Of a DNA stretch of 53,424 bases, positions 6,171 to 14,062 are shown one piece after another. Position numbers and translations under genes: made by a program. Within the stretch, counting starts at the first letter, position 1, and the number at the start of each line of letters is the position of its first letter. Under the pieces are notes generated by a model. That model ran no database searches. It saw only the letters and a list, made by a program, of their open reading frames with translations, and was not told the origin of the DNA. Where the stretch lies: contig DATHUY010000052.1 in the NCBI GenBank assembly GCA_035461765.1, forward strand, positions 1-53,424, read 5' to 3'. The DNA is from Longimicrobiales bacterium. GTDB taxonomy: Bacteria > Gemmatimonadota > Gemmatimonadetes > Longimicrobiales > RSA9.

Positions 6171-8759
6171 ATGCCGCTTGCACTGATCACCCGTGCGCGT
6201 CGCCGCGGAATAATCGTCGCGTTGTGGCTCGCCGTCGCGCCCGCTGCCGTGCTCGGACAGGAGGCGCCGCTCGGACAGGAGGCGCCGCTCGCGGCGGAAG
6301 GGTGGTCGCGCCCGCCCGAGCCCATTGCCCGCGCCGTCCTCGCGCCGCGCCACGAGAACATCACGCTCAGCAACGCGAGCCCGGACCAGCGTTACTTCCT
6401 CCGCACGGAGAGCGACGGTCTGCCGTCCATGGCGTCATTCGCCCGCCAGCACATGTGGCTGGGCGGGCTCCAGATCGATCCGCGCGCGAACCGCGCCCGC
6501 ACGTTCACGACGCGCGGCTCGGCAGGCCTGTCGGTGGTGGAATGGGAGAGCAACCGGACCATCGACATCCAGGTGCCGCGTGGGGCGACGGTCAGCGGCC
6601 CGAGCTGGTCGCCCGACGGCAGCCGCATCGCGTTCTTCGCGAACACGGATGATGCGACCCACATCTACGTCGCGGAGCTGCCGCGCGGCACGTCGCGCCA
6701 GATCACGCGCACACCGGTGCTCGCCACGATCAACACGCGCATCGAGTGGACGTCCGACGGCAGCGGCATCGTGACTGTGCTGGTGCCGGGCAGTCGCGGC
6801 GCACCGCCCGCCGTGCCCGCCGTGCCGCAGGGACCGCTGGTGCGGCACACGAGTGAGGGGGAGAACCGGCTGCGGACGTATGCGAGTCTGCTGGAGTGGC
6901 CGCACGAGATGGCCCTGCTCGAATACTACACCACCGGTCAGCTCGCACTCATCGATGTCGCCTCACGCTCCGTGAAGACGATCGGTGCACCAGCCATGAT
7001 CCGGAGTGTCGATGTCGGTCCGCGCGGCGAGTACATGCGCGTCACGACGATGCAGAAGCCGTTCAGCTATATCGTACCGGTCAACAACTTCGGCACGAAG
7101 GAAGAGCTCTGGTCCAGCGATGGCCGCGTGCTGGCCGAGCTGTCGGATCGGCCGCTCAACGTCGGCGTGCGCTCCGCCGGTGCGGGCAACGGCCGGGGCG
7201 GCGCTGACGACGATCAGGCCACGATGCGTAACATCACCTGGCGGCCGGATGGTGCCGGGCTGAGCTACCTGGAGCAGGAGCCCGCGCCCGACAGCACCGC
7301 CGCCGACAGTGCCGCGGCGGACCGCCCGCGGTCGGACACCACGGGCGCGCGTGCATCGAGCCGGCGCAAGGACCGTGTGATGCTCTGGGCGCCGCCGTTC
7401 AACGACGCAAGCCGCTCGATCGTCTACGAGAGCAATGCGCGCATGTCCAACGTGCGGTATTCGGCGGATGGCAGTGTGCTCTTCATCACGGAGGGCTCCG
7501 GTGACAACCAGCACCAGTACGCCGTGTTCCTGAGCGATCCTGCGACGAAGCACACGATCGTGCGTGGCCGCAGCGACGATTTCTACGATAATCCGGGTTC
7601 TCTCATGACGACGGCCGGCCCGCTCGGCTACGAGGTCGTGCGCACGTCGCCGGACAACCGCAGCGTCTACCTCAGCGGGACCCAGTACTTCAAGGACCCG
7701 CAGGAGCAGGCACCCCGGCCGTTCATTGACCGGCTCGAGCTTGCGACCGGCACGAAGACACGGGTCTACGAAGGCGAGAACGCGACCACATCCGAGCGCG
7801 TGGTCGCGGTGCTGGATGCCGACGCCCCCCGTCTCATCATCACGCGCGAGTCGCCGACCGATGTCCCGGACGCGTTCGTGCGCGAGCCGAACGGGCAGGT
7901 GCGTCAGATCACGAACAACCGCGATTACAACCCCGAGATCACGAACGCGCAGCGTCGGCGCTATACGGTGGCGCGCGCGGACGGCCTGACGTTCAAGGTC
8001 GATGTGACCCTGCCCGCCGACTACCGGGCCGGGACGCGACTGCCCGGCATGTTCTGGTTCTATCCGCGCGAGTACACGGACCAGGAGGACTACGACGAGA
8101 CGCTGCGCACGTACAACAGGAACCGGTTCCCGTCGGTCGGCGTGCGCTCGATGGAGTTCCTGACGATGGCCGGATATGCCGTCATTCAGCCGGACGCGCC
8201 GATCATTGGTGAGAGCGGCCGGATGAACGACAACTATGAGCACGACCTGCGTAACAACCTGGCCGCGGTGATCGACCATCTCGACCAGGAAGGCATCATC
8301 GATCGCAATCGTCTCGCCGTCGGCGGTCACAGCTACGGCGCGTTCTCCACGGTCAATGCCATGGTACACACGCCGTTCTTCAAGGCCGGCATTGCCGGCG
8401 ACGGCAACTACAACCGCACGCTCACACCGCTCGGGTTCCAGACGGAGCGTCGCGACCTGTACGCGGGACGCGACACGTACCTGTCCATGTCGCCGTACCT
8501 GTTCGCGAACAACCTGACGGGTGCACTGCTGATGTACCACGGCATGGACGATCAGAACGTCGGTACTGCGCCGGATCACTCCCGGCGACTGTTCCACGTC
8601 CTGAACGGTCTCGGCAAGACCGCAGCGCTGTACATGTATCCGTATGAGGATCATGGCCCGGCCACTGAGGAGACGATCCTCGATCTGTGGGCGCGGTGGA
8701 TCGCGTGGCTCGATACGCACGTGAAGAACGGCGGCAATGCGGGCGTGACGACGAACTGA
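6171..8759 (+). CDS. S9 family serine peptidase, glutamyl-endopeptidase-like (S9D)
   Basis: Predicted exported prolyl-oligopeptidase-family enzyme of 862 residues. A signal peptide (about residues 1-28) is followed by a beta-propeller (about 60-580) and an alpha/beta-hydrolase domain (about 610-850). The nucleophile is S721 in GGHSYGAF; the acid is D793 or D794 in GMDDQN; the base is H828 in YEDHGP. The stretches WFYPREY, IGESGRMNDN and LTPLGFQTE match the arrangement in chloroplast/bacterial glutamyl endopeptidases (S9D), which cleave after Glu. GGAGG lies about 8 nt upstream of the ATG. At the mature N-terminus an 18-bp segment is duplicated in tandem (6252-6269 and 6270-6287), giving GQEAPLGQEAPL. 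It probably degrades peptides in the periplasm. Confidence 0.93.
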   Translation: MPLALITRARRRGIIVALWLAVAPAAVLGQEAPLGQEAPLAAEGWSRPPEPIARAVLAPRHENITLSNASPDQRYFLRTESDGLPSMASFARQHMWLGGLQIDPRANRARTFTTRGSAGLSVVEWESNRTIDIQVPRGATVSGPSWSPDGSRIAFFANTDDATHIYVAELPRGTSRQITRTPVLATINTRIEWTSDGSGIVTVLVPGSRGAPPAVPAVPQGPLVRHTSEGENRLRTYASLLEWPHEMALLEYYTTGQLALIDVASRSVKTIGAPAMIRSVDVGPRGEYMRVTTMQKPFSYIVPVNNFGTKEELWSSDGRVLAELSDRPLNVGVRSAGAGNGRGGADDDQATMRNITWRPDGAGLSYLEQEPAPDSTAADSAAADRPRSDTTGARASSRRKDRVMLWAPPFNDASRSIVYESNARMSNVRYSADGSVLFITEGSGDNQHQYAVFLSDPATKHTIVRGRSDDFYDNPGSLMTTAGPLGYEVVRTSPDNRSVYLSGTQYFKDPQEQAPRPFIDRLELATGTKTRVYEGENATTSERVVAVLDADAPRLIITRESPTDVPDAFVREPNGQVRQITNNRDYNPEITNAQRRRYTVARADGLTFKVDVTLPADYRAGTRLPGMFWFYPREYTDQEDYDETLRTYNRNRFPSVGVRSMEFLTMAGYAVIQPDAPIIGESGRMNDNYEHDLRNNLAAVIDHLDQEGIIDRNRLAVGGHSYGAFSTVNAMVHTPFFKAGIAGDGNYNRTLTPLGFQTERRDLYAGRDTYLSMSPYLFANNLTGALLMYHGMDDQNVGTAPDHSRRLFHVLNGLGKTAALYMYPYEDHGPATEETILDLWARWIAWLDTHVKNGGNAGVTTN

Positions 8760-8782
8760 GCGTCGGCGCGTGAAGTCTGAAC

Positions 8783-8826
8783 GGGGCTGCCGGCTGTCAC
8801 TGACGGCTGGCAGCCCCGCCGGTTTT
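8783..8826 (+). terminator. Intrinsic terminator after the S9 peptidase gene
   Basis: GGGGCTGCC (8783-8791) pairs with GGCAGCCCC (8809-8817), with an inner GTCA/TGAC pairing, followed by GCCGGTTTT. It lies between the convergent S9 peptidase and anti-sigma genes. Confidence 0.6.
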
Positions 8827-8875
8827 CAGACGGCGTCGTTGTTGCGGCGGCCGGCGGCGGCGCGGTGTATCCGGT

Positions 8876-9115
8876 TCAGCCGCCTTCCTCCAGCAGTCGC
8901 ATGAACACCTTCCGGCGCAGCTCCGGCGGCGCCTTCTCGCGGCACTGACTCGCGACGAGCTCGCGGTACGCGCGCTGGAAGTCGTACTGCGGATAACAGC
9001 GGGCACAGCGATCGAGATGTTCCTGGACGCGCGCTGCATCCTCGGTGCACAGCTCCTGATCGATCAGCGCCCAGAGCTGTTCGAGCGCGTCGCTACAGCT
9101 CATGTGCTCGCTCAT
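8876..9115 (-). CDS. rsrA: Zinc-binding anti-sigma factor, RsrA-like
   Basis: A 79-residue ZAS anti-sigma factor. C7, H33, C37 and C40 (HLDRCARC) have the same spacing as the redox zinc site of Streptomyces RsrA (C-x25-H-x3-C-x2-C), and the C-terminal CREKAPPELRRKV matches the family. In RsrA, thiol oxidation forms a disulfide, releases zinc and frees the sigma factor. The start overlaps the end of the upstream sigma gene by 4 bp (9112-9115), so the two are translationally coupled. The ligand set predicts sensing of disulfide stress, as opposed to the plain housekeeping role of many other zf-HC2 proteins. The symbol is by homology; function is inferred. Confidence 0.88.
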   Translation of the reverse strand: MSEHMSCSDALEQLWALIDQELCTEDAARVQEHLDRCARCYPQYDFQRAYRELVASQCREKAPPELRRKVFMRLLEEGG

Positions 9116-9771
9116 GTCGTGCTCCCGCGCAGATAACCCATCTCTTGTGCGTAGTCGTACAGCGCCCGCTGGAGCAGGCGGCGGCCGCGGTAGAGCCGGC
9201 TCTTCACCGTGCCCAGCGGCACGCCGACGATCTCTGCGATCTCGCCGTAGCCGAGACCTTCGACATCGCTCAGTACCACGACTTCCCGGAACTCGGTCGG
9301 CAGCTGCTCTACGGCGCGCGTGACCTCCTCATCGATGAACGACGCGAAGAACCCCTCCTCGGGGTCCGGCTGCGTCACGTCGCGCAGCGCGTCCCCGCCT
9401 GCAAATGCAGCAAGGTCATGGTCCAGCTCGCTCTGGAGCGTCTCCGGCCGCCGCGCCTGCCGCTCGCGCGCGCGGAGGAACACGTTGCGCGTGATTGTGA
9501 ACAGCCACGCCCGTGCGCTGGTGCCGCGCTGGAACGTGTGCCAGTGACGGTAGGCTCGCAGGAAGGTTTCCTGGACGATGTCGTCCGCCTCCGCCCGGTT
9601 GCCGGCCGTGAGGCGGATGGCGTAACGGTAGACGGCGTCGAGCCAGGGGATCGCCTCTTCGGCAAATCCCTCCTTCGGCAGCCGCCCGGCGGGCGGGCTG
9701 TCATCACCGGCAGATCCGGACCCGTCGGCCTGTGCCGTTCCCTCGCCCGGCATCTCCATGGCTCTGCTCAC
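9112..9771 (-). CDS. sigR: ECF RNA polymerase sigma factor, SigR-like
   Basis: ECF sigma factor of about 219 residues. Region 2 lies around residues 40-110 (VYRYAIRLTAGNRAEADDIVQ, with the -10-recognising helix ARAWLFTITRNVF). Region 4 lies around 150-205, with the helix-turn-helix YGEIAEIVGVPLGTVKSRL. The C-terminus YDYAQEMGYLRG resembles the SigR/SigH group of oxidative-stress sigma factors. Its partner is the RsrA-like protein encoded immediately downstream with a 4-bp overlap. A start at the second ATG (MEMPGEG) is also possible; the N-terminal 35 residues are low-complexity. I did not find a convincing GGGAAT-GTT autoregulatory promoter upstream. Targets would include thiol-redox genes elsewhere. 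Confidence 0.92.
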   Translation of the reverse strand: MSRAMEMPGEGTAQADGSGSAGDDSPPAGRLPKEGFAEEAIPWLDAVYRYAIRLTAGNRAEADDIVQETFLRAYRHWHTFQRGTSARAWLFTITRNVFLRARERQARRPETLQSELDHDLAAFAGGDALRDVTQPDPEEGFFASFIDEEVTRAVEQLPTEFREVVVLSDVEGLGYGEIAEIVGVPLGTVKSRLYRGRRLLQRALYDYAQEMGYLRGSTT

Positions 9772-9970
9772 ATCCCTGCAAATCCGCGCGGCGGCCCGGC
9801 GGTTCCCCCGGTGGCCCGGGCACCGGCCGGGAGCGGTGGCACGTCAGCGTAAGCGTGATCCCGCCCCGCCGCAACGAGCCCGGACCCCGCTCGGCCAACA
9901 TAACCGGGTGGCTGAGTGTCCTATATGCAACGAACCTGCGGCAACCCTGAACATTCCGAGCGAGCCGAGC

Positions 9971-12900
9971 ATGCGCAGCATCCGATGGATATGTGTCCTC
10001 TTCCTCCTGGCGCTGGCGCTGCCGGCATCGGCACAGGAAGCCGATATTCTGACCGGCCGCGTACTGGGCGCGGACGGGAAGCCGATCATTGGCGCGCGCG
10101 TGGAGGTCGTTTCGGCGGAGACCGAAATCACGCGATCGGTGCTGACGGACCAGAACGGCCGGTACCTGCTCCAGTTCCCGGACGGCGGCGGCCGCTACCT
10201 GGTGCGGATCACGTACATCGGGCTGGGCGACATCGTGCAGGCGGTCGTCCGCAATGCGGAAGAGGAGCTGCTGCTGACCGACTTCGTGATGCGGCCGCAG
10301 GCGATCGCGCTGGATGCCATCAATGTGGCCGCGCAGCGACCGCCGCCGAGCCAGGCGGGGGCGGGCGATCAGTCCACGGCGCTGTCGCAGGAGATGGCGA
10401 ACCGGCTGCCGCTGCCGGACCTGGACCCGAACACGCTCGCACTGCTGGCCGCGGGCGTGGTGGGTACTTCCGCGGATTCGCTCAGCGGCCGCATGGGCTT
10501 CTCCGTGGCCGGCATGAGCGACCTGCTCAACCAGATCACGCTCGATGGTGTCGTGCTCGGCGAGGAGTCTCTCGGCGTGCCCGAGGAGGGAGTGCGCCGC
10601 ACGCAGGTGACCACGAGCACGTTCGACGCGTCGCGCGGCGGGTTCGCGGGCGGTCAGGTCAGCATGACCACGGCGCGCGGCAACAACCGCTCGGGCGGTG
10701 CGCTGTCCTATCGCCTCGACGATGATGCGCTCCAGATGAGCTCCGCCGCATCGACCAACCCGTTCACGCGCCACAACCTCGGCGGCTCGTGGGGTGGCCC
10801 GATCATCCGTAACCGGCTGTTCTACAACGGCTCGTTCCAGGTCGGTCGCAACACCAATTACCTGTTCGCGCTCGCTGCCGACGACCCGCTCGCGGCCCAG
10901 AGGTCGGGTGTGGCACCCGATTCCATCGGGCGCTTCCTCGACATTCTCCAGACGGGGCTCAACTTCCCCGTCGACGGCCAGACGGGTGCGTACACGCAGC
11001 TCAACCGCGACTACCGCCTCCAGGGACGGATGGACTGGAACGCCATGCAGCGGCAGGGACAGTCGCACACGATCTCGCTCAGCGGGAACACGAACATCAA
11101 CGACCAGGACAGCACGCGGATCCGCTCGCTCGATCTGGCGCAGCACGGCGGCGATGTCGAGCGCAACAGCCAGCTCGTGCGGCTCGGCGTGATCTCGCGG
11201 TTCGGCACCACCTGGACGAACAACCTGGCGTTCTCGTTCTCTGAGAACTGGAGCGCTCAGACGCCGTTCGTCGAGATGCCGGAAGGCCAGGTGCGCGTCA
11301 CGTCCGAGTTCGAGGATGGCACGCGCGGCACCAGCAGCCTGGTGTTCGGCGGGAACCGCAGCATGCCGCAGGAGGCATACAGCCGGAACCTGCAGGCGTC
11401 CAACGATGTGTCGTTCCTGCTGCCGGTCGGCGGGCAGCTGCACCGGCTCAAGGTCGGCGGCCGTTTCGACATCAGCAAGAATATCGACCGCTCGACCGAC
11501 AACCTGTACGGCACGTTCACGTTCGCTTCGCTCGAGGACTTCGAGGCGAATCTGCCCGAGCGGTTCGACCGGTCGCTGACGGAGCGGCGCACCCGCACCG
11601 GTTCCCTCAACGGCGGCCTGTACGTCGGTGACACGTGGCGCGTCAGCATGCCGCTCGAGGTTACGCTCGGCCTGCGCTGGGACTATTCCCGGCTCGATCA
11701 GAAGCCCGACTACAACCCGGCCGTGGAGGCCGCGTTCGGACGGCGCACCGACATCACGCCGGACGCGATGGGGTTCAGCCCCCGCGTCGGCTTCAGCTAC
11801 CGGCTGAACGCGCAGGGTGAGCCGCCCAAGTCGCTGAGCGGCGGCATCGGTCTCTTCGCGGGTCGCTCGCCGATCAACATCTACTCGACGGCCGTGCGCC
11901 AGACGGGTCTGCCGAATGCCGAGCAGCGTCTGACCTGCATCGGTGATGCGACGCCCGTCCCCGACTGGGACCTCTATCTCCAGGATCCCGGTGCCGTGCC
12001 GGACATGTGCGCCGATGGCGGCATGGGCGCGGGCGATCCGTTCTCGCTGCGCGCGCCGACGGTCACGCTGATCGATCCCGATCAGTCGCTGCCCTCATCG
12101 CTGCGGCTGGACCTGGGGTACCGTACGCAGCTTCCGAAGAACTTCACGGGCAACTTCCGTTACACGTACTCGCTCGGTCGCGGCCTGTGGGGCTATCGCG
12201 ACATCAACCTGGATGAGGCGAACACGTTCGCACTCGGCGGCGACGGCCGTCCGTTCTTCGGCGATCCGAGCGCCATCGTGACGCAGAGCGGCGCGGTGTC
12301 CTACGGCGCGTCGCGCATCAACCCGGAGTTCGGGAGCGTGTTCGACGTGGTGTCGGGGCGCGAGTCGAAGGCTCATCAGATCACCGCGCAGATCAGCGGG
12401 CAGCTGCCGCCGAAGCTGTTCCTGAACGTCAACTACACACTGGGCTTCGCACGCGATCAGGCGTCGGGGTCCTTCGGGCAGGCAACGACCGCGGGTAACC
12501 CGAACGAGGAGGAGTGGGGCACGTCGAGCAACGATCGCCGGCACACCATCAACCTCATGACGTCGTACGCTGTAACGGAATGGATCGAGCTGTCGGCGAC
12601 GACGCGTCTCTCGTCCGGTACACCGTTCACGCCGATGGTGAACCGCGACATCAACGGAGATGGCGCGCGCAACGACCGCGCGTTCGTGTTCGATCCGGCG
12701 GACGCGACGGATCCGGCGATCGCGGACGGCATGAGCCGGCTCATGAGCAACGTGCCGGGGAACATCGCGGACTGCCTGCGCTCGCAGCTCGGTCAGATCG
12801 CGGATCGCAACAGCTGCCGCAACGGGTGGACGGAGTCGCTCGACATGCGGCTGAGCCTGCGACCGAATCTGCCGACGCTCCAGCGGCGCCTCACGCTGTC

Positions 12901-14062
12901 CCTCGACACGCGCAACATGCTCACAGGCATCGACCAGCTCGTGAACGGGAAGAACGACCTGAAGGGCTGGGGCGCCGGACAGCGCGCGGACGCGACGCTG
13001 CTGGAGGTGAACGGCTTCGACCCGGTCACGAACAGCTTCATCTATCAGGTCAACGAAGGATTCGGACAAACACGGCGCGGTCCCAACTCGTTCCGTACAC
13101 CGTTCTCCATCACGCTGTCCGGCCGCATCGCCATCGGCGGCCAGCCGCAGATGAACAACCGTGGCTTCGGCACGCGCGGCATGGGCGGTGGCTTCGCCGG
13201 CGACTTCGGTGGCGGCGGGCGCATGGGTGGCGGCGACATGGGCGGGATGCGAGGGGCCATGGGCGGCGCACCGGGCATGGACATCGGTGCACTGATGCGT
13301 GGCACGGCGAATGTCGACTCCATCCTGGACGCAGCACTGCGCAATCCGGTGAAGGATGTGCTCGCGCTGCGTGACTCGCTCGGCATGACCGCAGAGCAGG
13401 TGACGAGCATCCAGCTGCTCGCGGACACGGTGGATGCGCAGCATGCGCGCAGGCGCGCCGATCTGGAGCCCGCGCTCCAGCAGGTGGCAGCCTCCGTGGG
13501 GGCCGGTCGCCCGAATCCGCAGGAGCTCCAGCAGCAGTTCCAGCTCCAGATCCAGCCGCATCTGAGCGGTGCGCAGCGTGAGGTCGCGGAGGCCATGACG
13601 CTGGTGCAGCGCGAGCTCAGCCCGGAACAGTGGGAGAAGGTGCCGGCGTCGCTGCGTCAGACCCAGCAGCAGCAGCAGCGTGGCAGCTTCAACGCGGTGG
13701 GATTCATCGACCGCATGCTGGCCAATCCGCTGCCGGTCCTGCTCGAGCTCAGGGATACGCTGCGCATGACGCCGGAGCAGATCGCACAGATCGAGAAGAT
13801 CTCGACGGACCTCCAGGTCAGCCTGGCGCAGCGGCGCGAGGCTCTCGGTCGGCGTTTCGACAACGTTCAGCCCGGCGCCGAACAGGGCCGGATCTTCCAG
13901 GAGCTCCAGCCGGAGATCGAGAAGACACGCAGCGAGATCAGCGACGCGCTGAAGGCGGCGGAGAAGGTGCTGACGCCGGAGCAATGGAAGCAGGTACCGG
14001 AACAGATCCGCAATCCGTTCCAGCCACAACAGCGCGGCCAGCGCAGGGGAGGCGGCGAGTAG
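9971..14062 (+). CDS. Carboxypeptidase-regulatory/TonB-dependent receptor with a C-terminal Spy-like helical extension
   Basis: Outer-membrane receptor of about 1363 residues. Signal peptide MRSIRWICVLFLLALALPAS is followed by a carboxypeptidase-regulatory-like domain (about 25-115: TGRVLGADGKPIIGARVEV ... GRYLL), a plug region (about 130-270) and an Oar-type beta-barrel to about residue 1055, whose last strand is FSITLSGRIAIGG. A Gly/Met-rich linker (about 1058-1105) then joins two related helical repeats: LRDSLGMTAEQ (near 1130) and LRDTLRMTPEQ (near 1257), each ending in a PEQW motif (SPEQWEKVP, TPEQWKQVP). These resemble periplasmic LTxxQ/Spy-type domains. Barrel C-termini face the periplasm, so the tail should lie there. 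The ATG at 9971 was chosen because the signal peptide starts there; 71 upstream codons are non-coding in character. The substrate is unknown. Confidence 0.9.
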   Translation: MRSIRWICVLFLLALALPASAQEADILTGRVLGADGKPIIGARVEVVSAETEITRSVLTDQNGRYLLQFPDGGGRYLVRITYIGLGDIVQAVVRNAEEELLLTDFVMRPQAIALDAINVAAQRPPPSQAGAGDQSTALSQEMANRLPLPDLDPNTLALLAAGVVGTSADSLSGRMGFSVAGMSDLLNQITLDGVVLGEESLGVPEEGVRRTQVTTSTFDASRGGFAGGQVSMTTARGNNRSGGALSYRLDDDALQMSSAASTNPFTRHNLGGSWGGPIIRNRLFYNGSFQVGRNTNYLFALAADDPLAAQRSGVAPDSIGRFLDILQTGLNFPVDGQTGAYTQLNRDYRLQGRMDWNAMQRQGQSHTISLSGNTNINDQDSTRIRSLDLAQHGGDVERNSQLVRLGVISRFGTTWTNNLAFSFSENWSAQTPFVEMPEGQVRVTSEFEDGTRGTSSLVFGGNRSMPQEAYSRNLQASNDVSFLLPVGGQLHRLKVGGRFDISKNIDRSTDNLYGTFTFASLEDFEANLPERFDRSLTERRTRTGSLNGGLYVGDTWRVSMPLEVTLGLRWDYSRLDQKPDYNPAVEAAFGRRTDITPDAMGFSPRVGFSYRLNAQGEPPKSLSGGIGLFAGRSPINIYSTAVRQTGLPNAEQRLTCIGDATPVPDWDLYLQDPGAVPDMCADGGMGAGDPFSLRAPTVTLIDPDQSLPSSLRLDLGYRTQLPKNFTGNFRYTYSLGRGLWGYRDINLDEANTFALGGDGRPFFGDPSAIVTQSGAVSYGASRINPEFGSVFDVVSGRESKAHQITAQISGQLPPKLFLNVNYTLGFARDQASGSFGQATTAGNPNEEEWGTSSNDRRHTINLMTSYAVTEWIELSATTRLSSGTPFTPMVNRDINGDGARNDRAFVFDPADATDPAIADGMSRLMSNVPGNIADCLRSQLGQIADRNSCRNGWTESLDMRLSLRPNLPTLQRRLTLSLDTRNMLTGIDQLVNGKNDLKGWGAGQRADATLLEVNGFDPVTNSFIYQVNEGFGQTRRGPNSFRTPFSITLSGRIAIGGQPQMNNRGFGTRGMGGGFAGDFGGGGRMGGGDMGGMRGAMGGAPGMDIGALMRGTANVDSILDAALRNPVKDVLALRDSLGMTAEQVTSIQLLADTVDAQHARRRADLEPALQQVAASVGAGRPNPQELQQQFQLQIQPHLSGAQREVAEAMTLVQRELSPEQWEKVPASLRQTQQQQQRGSFNAVGFIDRMLANPLPVLLELRDTLRMTPEQIAQIEKISTDLQVSLAQRREALGRRFDNVQPGAEQGRIFQELQPEIEKTRSEISDALKAAEKVLTPEQWKQVPEQIRNPFQPQQRGQRRGGGE

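Follow-up and report, generated by a model that had tools for sequence, protein, structure and literature searches.

An Oar-like TonB-dependent receptor of Gemmatimonadota with a C-terminal LTXXQ/Spy-like double unit

Introduction

In TonB-dependent receptors, the last strand of the 22-strand barrel terminates on the periplasmic side and, to our knowledge, the known accessory domains of these receptors are located at the N-terminus. The periplasm also harbours small helical proteins, among them CpxP, which is a regulator of the LTXXQ type, and CnrX and NccX, which likewise belong to the helical-hairpin type. Spy is a dimer shaped like a cradle, the concave face of which is positively charged (PMC8144458); it binds unfolded outer-membrane proteins (PMC8546600) and holds further clients as well (PMC8546600, PMC8144458). 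With regard to the receptors of the Oar type, Oar of Myxococcus is needed for the secretion of PopC, the passage of this protein through the barrel not being demonstrated in that work (PMC6434023).

The receptor described here is encoded in a 53,424-nucleotide stretch of DNA from a Longimicrobiales bacterium, which is referred to as the window. Behind its barrel the chain continues with a linker and two helical units related to the LTXXQ family. This fusion is confirmed as a real receptor architecture, and it is standard, usually with one unit, in a large clade of Gemmatimonadota receptors.

Gene layout and predicted structure

The reading frame at 9971-14062 on the forward strand is open throughout its 1363 codons, and its parts are arranged as follows.

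9971..14062, + strand: whole gene, Oar-like TonB-dependent receptor with a C-terminal LTXXQ/Spy-like double unit (1363 aa)
9971..10036, + strand: signal peptide, residues ~1-22, recognised by eye from the sequence
10049..10261, + strand: CarboxypepD_reg N-terminal domain, residues 27-97 (Pfam PF13620, E 8e-12)
10301..10660, + strand: putative plug region, residues ~111-230, from sequence motifs by eye; the whole model matches TonB-dependent receptors of the PDB
10661..13135, + strand: beta-barrel, residues ~231-1055 (PF25183 at 345-979; AlphaFold model)
Residues 1046-1055, + strand: last barrel strand, SITLSGRIAI (full-length AlphaFold model)
13136..13282, + strand: Gly/Met-rich disordered linker, residues ~1056-1104 (pLDDT 22-32)
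13283..13660, + strand: unit 1, residues 1105-1230, LTXXQ-like helical unit, a lineage-specific duplicate that is less constrained
13685..14020, + strand: unit 2, residues 1239-1350, LTXXQ-like helical unit, strongly constrained

The Pfam matches over the cut-off were CarboxypepD_reg (E 8e-12), OMP_b-brl_4 (PF25183, E 8e-52) and the TonB_dep_Rec barrel (E 9e-10). The Pfam Plug family gave no match in the receptor up to E 10, and the plug-like sequence at about residues 111-230 was recognised by eye. An antisense frame of 644 aa (12095-14029, minus strand) overlies the tail and is probably a shadow of the codon bias of high-GC DNA.

The full-length AlphaFold model covers residues 170-1363 and was built from 12 sequences, with a mean pLDDT of 69. 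It contains a barrel of about 22-23 strands that ends at residue 1055, followed by a low-confidence linker at about 1057-1113 and then by helices. Its matches in the PDB are TonB-dependent receptors with a probability of 1.00, the ferredoxin receptor FusA being at the top, followed by YddB. The initial annotation, made from the sequence alone, had proposed that a Gly/Met linker and two related helical repeats, together about 260 residues, follow the last barrel strand, and the model bears this out: about 305 residues lie beyond the barrel, of which some 250-260 form the two helical units, and the linker holds 20 Gly and 7 Met within residues 1058-1104, with a pLDDT of 22-32.

When the tail was modelled on its own, the pLDDT rose to 87.8. 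Each unit in this model begins with short helices, turns at the LTxxQ motif into two long helices and closes with a short helix at EQW; the helical hairpin with two long helices that marks the LTXXQ family is thus present in the units. The pTM of this model is 0.54, and the mutual arrangement of the two units is unreliable. The structure prediction that had been suggested as a check on the tail thus returned hairpins of the LTxxQ type and not an unrelated fold. Foldseek searches against the PDB gave three matches with a probability above 0.5, namely CnrX (0.87, with a TM-score of 0.66 on the target), NccX (0.57) and the helical flavoprotein Rv3094c, all with E-values above 0.1. CnrX and NccX are the best compact fold matches of the tail, with weak Foldseek E-values. 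In a 22-strand barrel the final strand comes out on the periplasmic face, which would place the tail in the periplasm, hanging beside the plug exit.

Relationship of the helical units to the LTXXQ family

The units are about 115 residues long, with an LTxxQ-type motif at the start and (S/T)PEQW at the end. The motifs quoted in the initial annotation, LRDxLxMTxEQ and PEQW, are present in both of them, as LRDSLGMTAEQ and SPEQW in unit 1 and as LRDTLRMTPEQ and TPEQW in unit 2, and LTxxQ-type motifs are found near both ends of each unit (MTAEQ and LSPEQ in unit 1, MTPEQ and LTPEQ in unit 2). The two units share 33% identity, each forms a helical hairpin and both match the family profile strongly; their profile scores are 1e-40 and 7e-50, both units being among the rows from which the profile was built. 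In an alignment of 23 units, L and Q are invariant in the first motif, as are L and W in the second, and across the aligned units from relatives the invariant residues are L, Q, P, L, W and P. Moreover, the NP and EQWxxxP motifs are strongly conserved among the units.

Membership of the LTXXQ superfamily is well supported through intermediate sequences. Pfam LTXXQ was matched at E <= 0.01 by 18 of the 23 units from relatives, with a best value of 1.5e-9. The units of the window reach at most 21.9 bits against this family (PF07813), for which the curated cut-off is 24.3, and LTXXQ ranks as the first or second Pfam match when each of them is searched alone. Furthermore, the unit profile aligned to one built from six stand-alone Gemmatimonadota proteins with an hhalign probability of 99.3 (E 7.3e-21); most of these six have a visible signal peptide, and all six match LTXXQ. 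Comparison of the unit profile with the single E. coli sequences of Spy, CpxP and ZraP was not significant (probability about 2%), and a sequence search of the PDB with the same profile was uninformative, yielding designed repeat proteins and weak matches such as NccX (E 0.88). The units thus appear, on sequence grounds, to be homologues of the LTXXQ family, while their identity as a Spy is not established. Together with the AlphaFold hairpins and the barrel topology, this homology upholds the earlier description of the tail as a periplasmic, Spy/LTxxQ-like double extension.

With regard to composition, the net charge of the units of the window is -2 and 0, compared with +5 for Spy, while that of single-unit receptors in relatives ranges from 0 to +5; judged on net charge, the positive charge of Spy is absent from the units of the window. 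Cys is absent from all 28 units analysed, which hold 11 His in 3608 residues, and unit 2 of the window is devoid of His. Metal_resist gave weak matches in 2 of the 23 units.

Distribution and history of the tail

A search for the same extension in receptors of the phylum, proposed at the outset, was productive: the profile found matches at E <= 1e-6 in 189 of 395 Gemmatimonadota genomes, and among 61 close genomes the tail was matched in 23 at E <= 0.001, in a few cases through stand-alone proteins only. Among the matches listed, which come from 125 genomes, 107 genomes have a match in a frame of at least 900 aa, the frame length serving as a proxy for the fusion. Direct reading of about 40 receptor loci showed the tail behind the barrel end, and relatives retain it in frame with an identity of 25-76%. 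A scan of the genomes of 84,980 species from all phyla returned 13 loci, 12 of them fused (all in Gemmatimonadota) and one a stand-alone protein of Campylobacterales; the pattern used caught only a fraction of the known members, and absence elsewhere is weak evidence. The initial remark that no standard receptor architecture of this kind is known needs correction, as the architecture is standard in a large receptor clade of the phylum and not unique to this gene. The tailed receptors are apparently new to the literature, no description having come up in its open-licence portion for TonB-dependent proteins with LTXXQ or a C-terminal extension, an absence that is not proof.

Besides the receptor described here, the genome of the window encodes one more whose tail has diverged (G000:C170, profile E 7e-9). 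It also carries a relative that has no tail (G000:C48), together with several LTXXQ proteins that stand alone. One stand-alone Met/His-rich protein of this genome (L106, G000:C56) matches both Metal_resist and LTXXQ over the cut-off and is possibly a metal-binding cousin of the tail. Elsewhere, two tailed receptors lie tail to tail at one locus (L124, 3995-7852 on the plus strand and 7898-11830 on the minus strand, with about 45 bases between them), and in one genus (L011, L013 and L016) a Pro-rich low-complexity extension continues beyond the helical unit.

A tree of the barrel region, calculated without the tail columns and rooted at the midpoint, contains one branch with a support of 100 that splits 47 tailed receptors and one tail-less receptor from nine tail-less ones. 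The tail is thus restricted to one receptor clade, and a single gain would be the simplest reading, although it is not proven under midpoint rooting. Within the tailed clade, a single receptor (L021, G051) terminates immediately after the barrel; it has probably lost its tail and lends itself to comparison. Receptor subfamilies with strongly diverged tails, in which the LTxxQ and EQW motifs are eroded (L135, L138, L139, L142 and L145), form one group with other diverged-tail receptors in this tree.

One unit is the common state among the tailed receptors, and by its position unit 2 of the window is the counterpart of that single unit. In a tree of the units, the unit 1 sequences of the two-unit receptors cluster together (bootstrap 98) beside the cluster of unit 2, and the duplication therefore took place once, in the subclade of the window. 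A receptor of G011 that is nested among the two-unit receptors has a single unit, probably through loss, and a two-unit receptor from a genome labelled as family f2 (L006, G046) nests in the family of the window, which may reflect transfer or misplacement. Comparison of the window with a congener indicates purifying selection, with a dN/dS of 0.11 in both unit 2 and the barrel, compared with 0.29 in the linker and 0.37 in unit 1. Unit 2 is the most strictly held part, since its dN/dS is the lowest and equal to that of the barrel, and unit 1 evolves faster than both (0.37 vs 0.11).

Gene neighbourhood

Across 20 loci that were compared, the receptor is the only generally conserved gene, with no conserved transport or cargo gene beside it. 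In the window, an ECF sigma factor followed by a zf-HC2 anti-sigma factor is encoded at 8876-9771 on the minus strand, divergent from the receptor; the anti-sigma factor has 79 aa and no apparent membrane or periplasmic part. Regulation through this sigma factor was considered and rejected, as the pair is not conserved beside other tailed receptors at the 20 loci. At three loci from three genomes of one other family (L119, L120 and L122), an OmpR-type response regulator and a HAMP/PAS sensor kinase adjoin the tailed receptor. Downstream of the receptor, the window carries at 14200-17036 genes for an M15 D-Ala-D-Ala dipeptidase, a GntR/FCD regulator and an enzyme of the MR_MLE type that may be a dipeptide epimerase. 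Their order is the same in the congener L112, the other genome of the genus, which would point to a locus for the use of peptides. A role of the tail tied to these neighbours was likewise rejected, since the order is kept within the genus and was not found at the other loci read.

Possible functions of the tail

The most likely reading, which we favour tentatively, is that the tail works as a tethered, holdase-like module that binds polypeptides where the receptor opens into the periplasm. An LTXXQ-family unit was fused behind the last barrel strand of an Oar-like receptor, probably once, in a Gemmatimonadota ancestor, and was later doubled in the subclade of the window. Hanging on a flexible Gly-rich tether beside the plug exit, the unit would bind polypeptide that is exposed or partly unfolded close to this opening, acting as a local holdase in the way that free Spy does in E. 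coli; candidates for the bound polypeptide are cargo on its way through the barrel, a partner of the receptor or neighbouring proteins under stress. The clients of Spy and the part of Oar in PopC secretion agree with this reading, as do the profile homology and the selection on unit 2; the sub-threshold LTXXQ scores of the window, the comparison with single E. coli sequences, the weak Foldseek E-values, the net charge and the lack of a conserved transport or cargo neighbour count against it. A role in what the receptor does is favoured because the tail is tied to one receptor clade and not to barrels in general. Since the units of the window have no net positive charge, the mode of client binding may differ from that of Spy.

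It is rather unlikely that the tail is instead a chaperone in cis, keeping the unfolded receptor in solution in the periplasm ahead of its insertion by the BAM complex. The barrel is large and no longer has its beta-signal at the very C-terminus, the tail is joined on directly after the last strand, and Spy does bind unfolded outer-membrane proteins (PMC8546600). However, equally large Oar-like receptors in the same genomes, including G000:C48, end at the barrel, and the tail follows one receptor clade. Less probable still would be a periplasmic sensor in the manner of CpxP, which would signal to a kinase or an anti-sigma factor at the inner membrane that the receptor is occupied or the envelope under stress. 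The regulatory role of CpxP within the LTXXQ type, the divergent sigma and anti-sigma genes of the window and the OmpR/kinase pair at the three loci would agree with it, but neither set of neighbours is conserved across the clade, and the small anti-sigma factor of the window has no apparent membrane or periplasmic part. A dedicated co-encoded signalling partner is disfavoured because there are no conserved neighbours. Of lower probability again is a structural tether or docking arm for peptidoglycan, TonB or a receptor partner, in which the LTXXQ fold would merely be a binding scaffold; the long flexible Gly-rich linker before a compact helical unit and the strongly conserved NP and EQWxxxP motifs fit such an arm, whereas no known peptidoglycan- or TonB-binding family was matched in Pfam.

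A metal-sensing unit like CnrX or NccX, placed on a metal receptor, is disfavoured and seems very improbable: these two proteins are the best compact fold matches and Metal_resist is weakly matched by two units, but the units are free of Cys and nearly so of His. That two adjacent genes have been read as one, or that the fusion is a frameshift artefact, can practically be dismissed. High-GC DNA does carry long shadow frames, such as the antisense frame over the tail, but the frame is continuous in about a hundred genomes and its codons are constrained. The possibility of separate genes had been raised from the start, and in the relatives read in detail receptor and tail form one uninterrupted frame, the few exceptions being contig ends or single frameshifts or stops in draft assemblies.

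Returning to the tethered holdase-like module, a wider and rather doubtful extension would be a class of TonB-dependent transporters, found across the phylum and each fitted with a periplasmic module for handling polypeptides, that moves or matures protein or peptide cargo across the outer membrane. If true, a transporter and its chaperone would be joined in one chain. A C-terminal helical domain from a chaperone and stress-protein family that is kept throughout a clade is new for these receptors both in its position and in its kind. It offers a handle on what the many Oar-like receptors do, for most of which no substrate is known, and on a possible handling of polypeptides by some of them, as well as a clean test of how an LTXXQ unit behaves when tethered.

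Comparison with known systems

By its Pfam domains, the receptor shares the N-terminal domain order and the barrel family of Oar of Myxococcus xanthus and the Oar-like receptors, which have CarboxypepD_reg, a plug and a barrel of the PF25183 type. The tail-less paralogues end at the last barrel strand, whereas the receptor of the window continues with the linker and the helical units. These units resemble the LTXXQ family (PF07813; Spy, CpxP) in having the motif at both ends and the helical hairpin, and in profile homology through family members. Nevertheless, Spy and CpxP are free periplasmic proteins, while the unit described here is covalently joined to an outer-membrane receptor and ends in a conserved EQWxxxP, and the units of the window do not have the positive charge of Spy. 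The units also have fold similarity to CnrX and NccX (PF13801 group); unlike these metal sensors, they have no Cys or conserved His ligands and are joined to an outer-membrane barrel.
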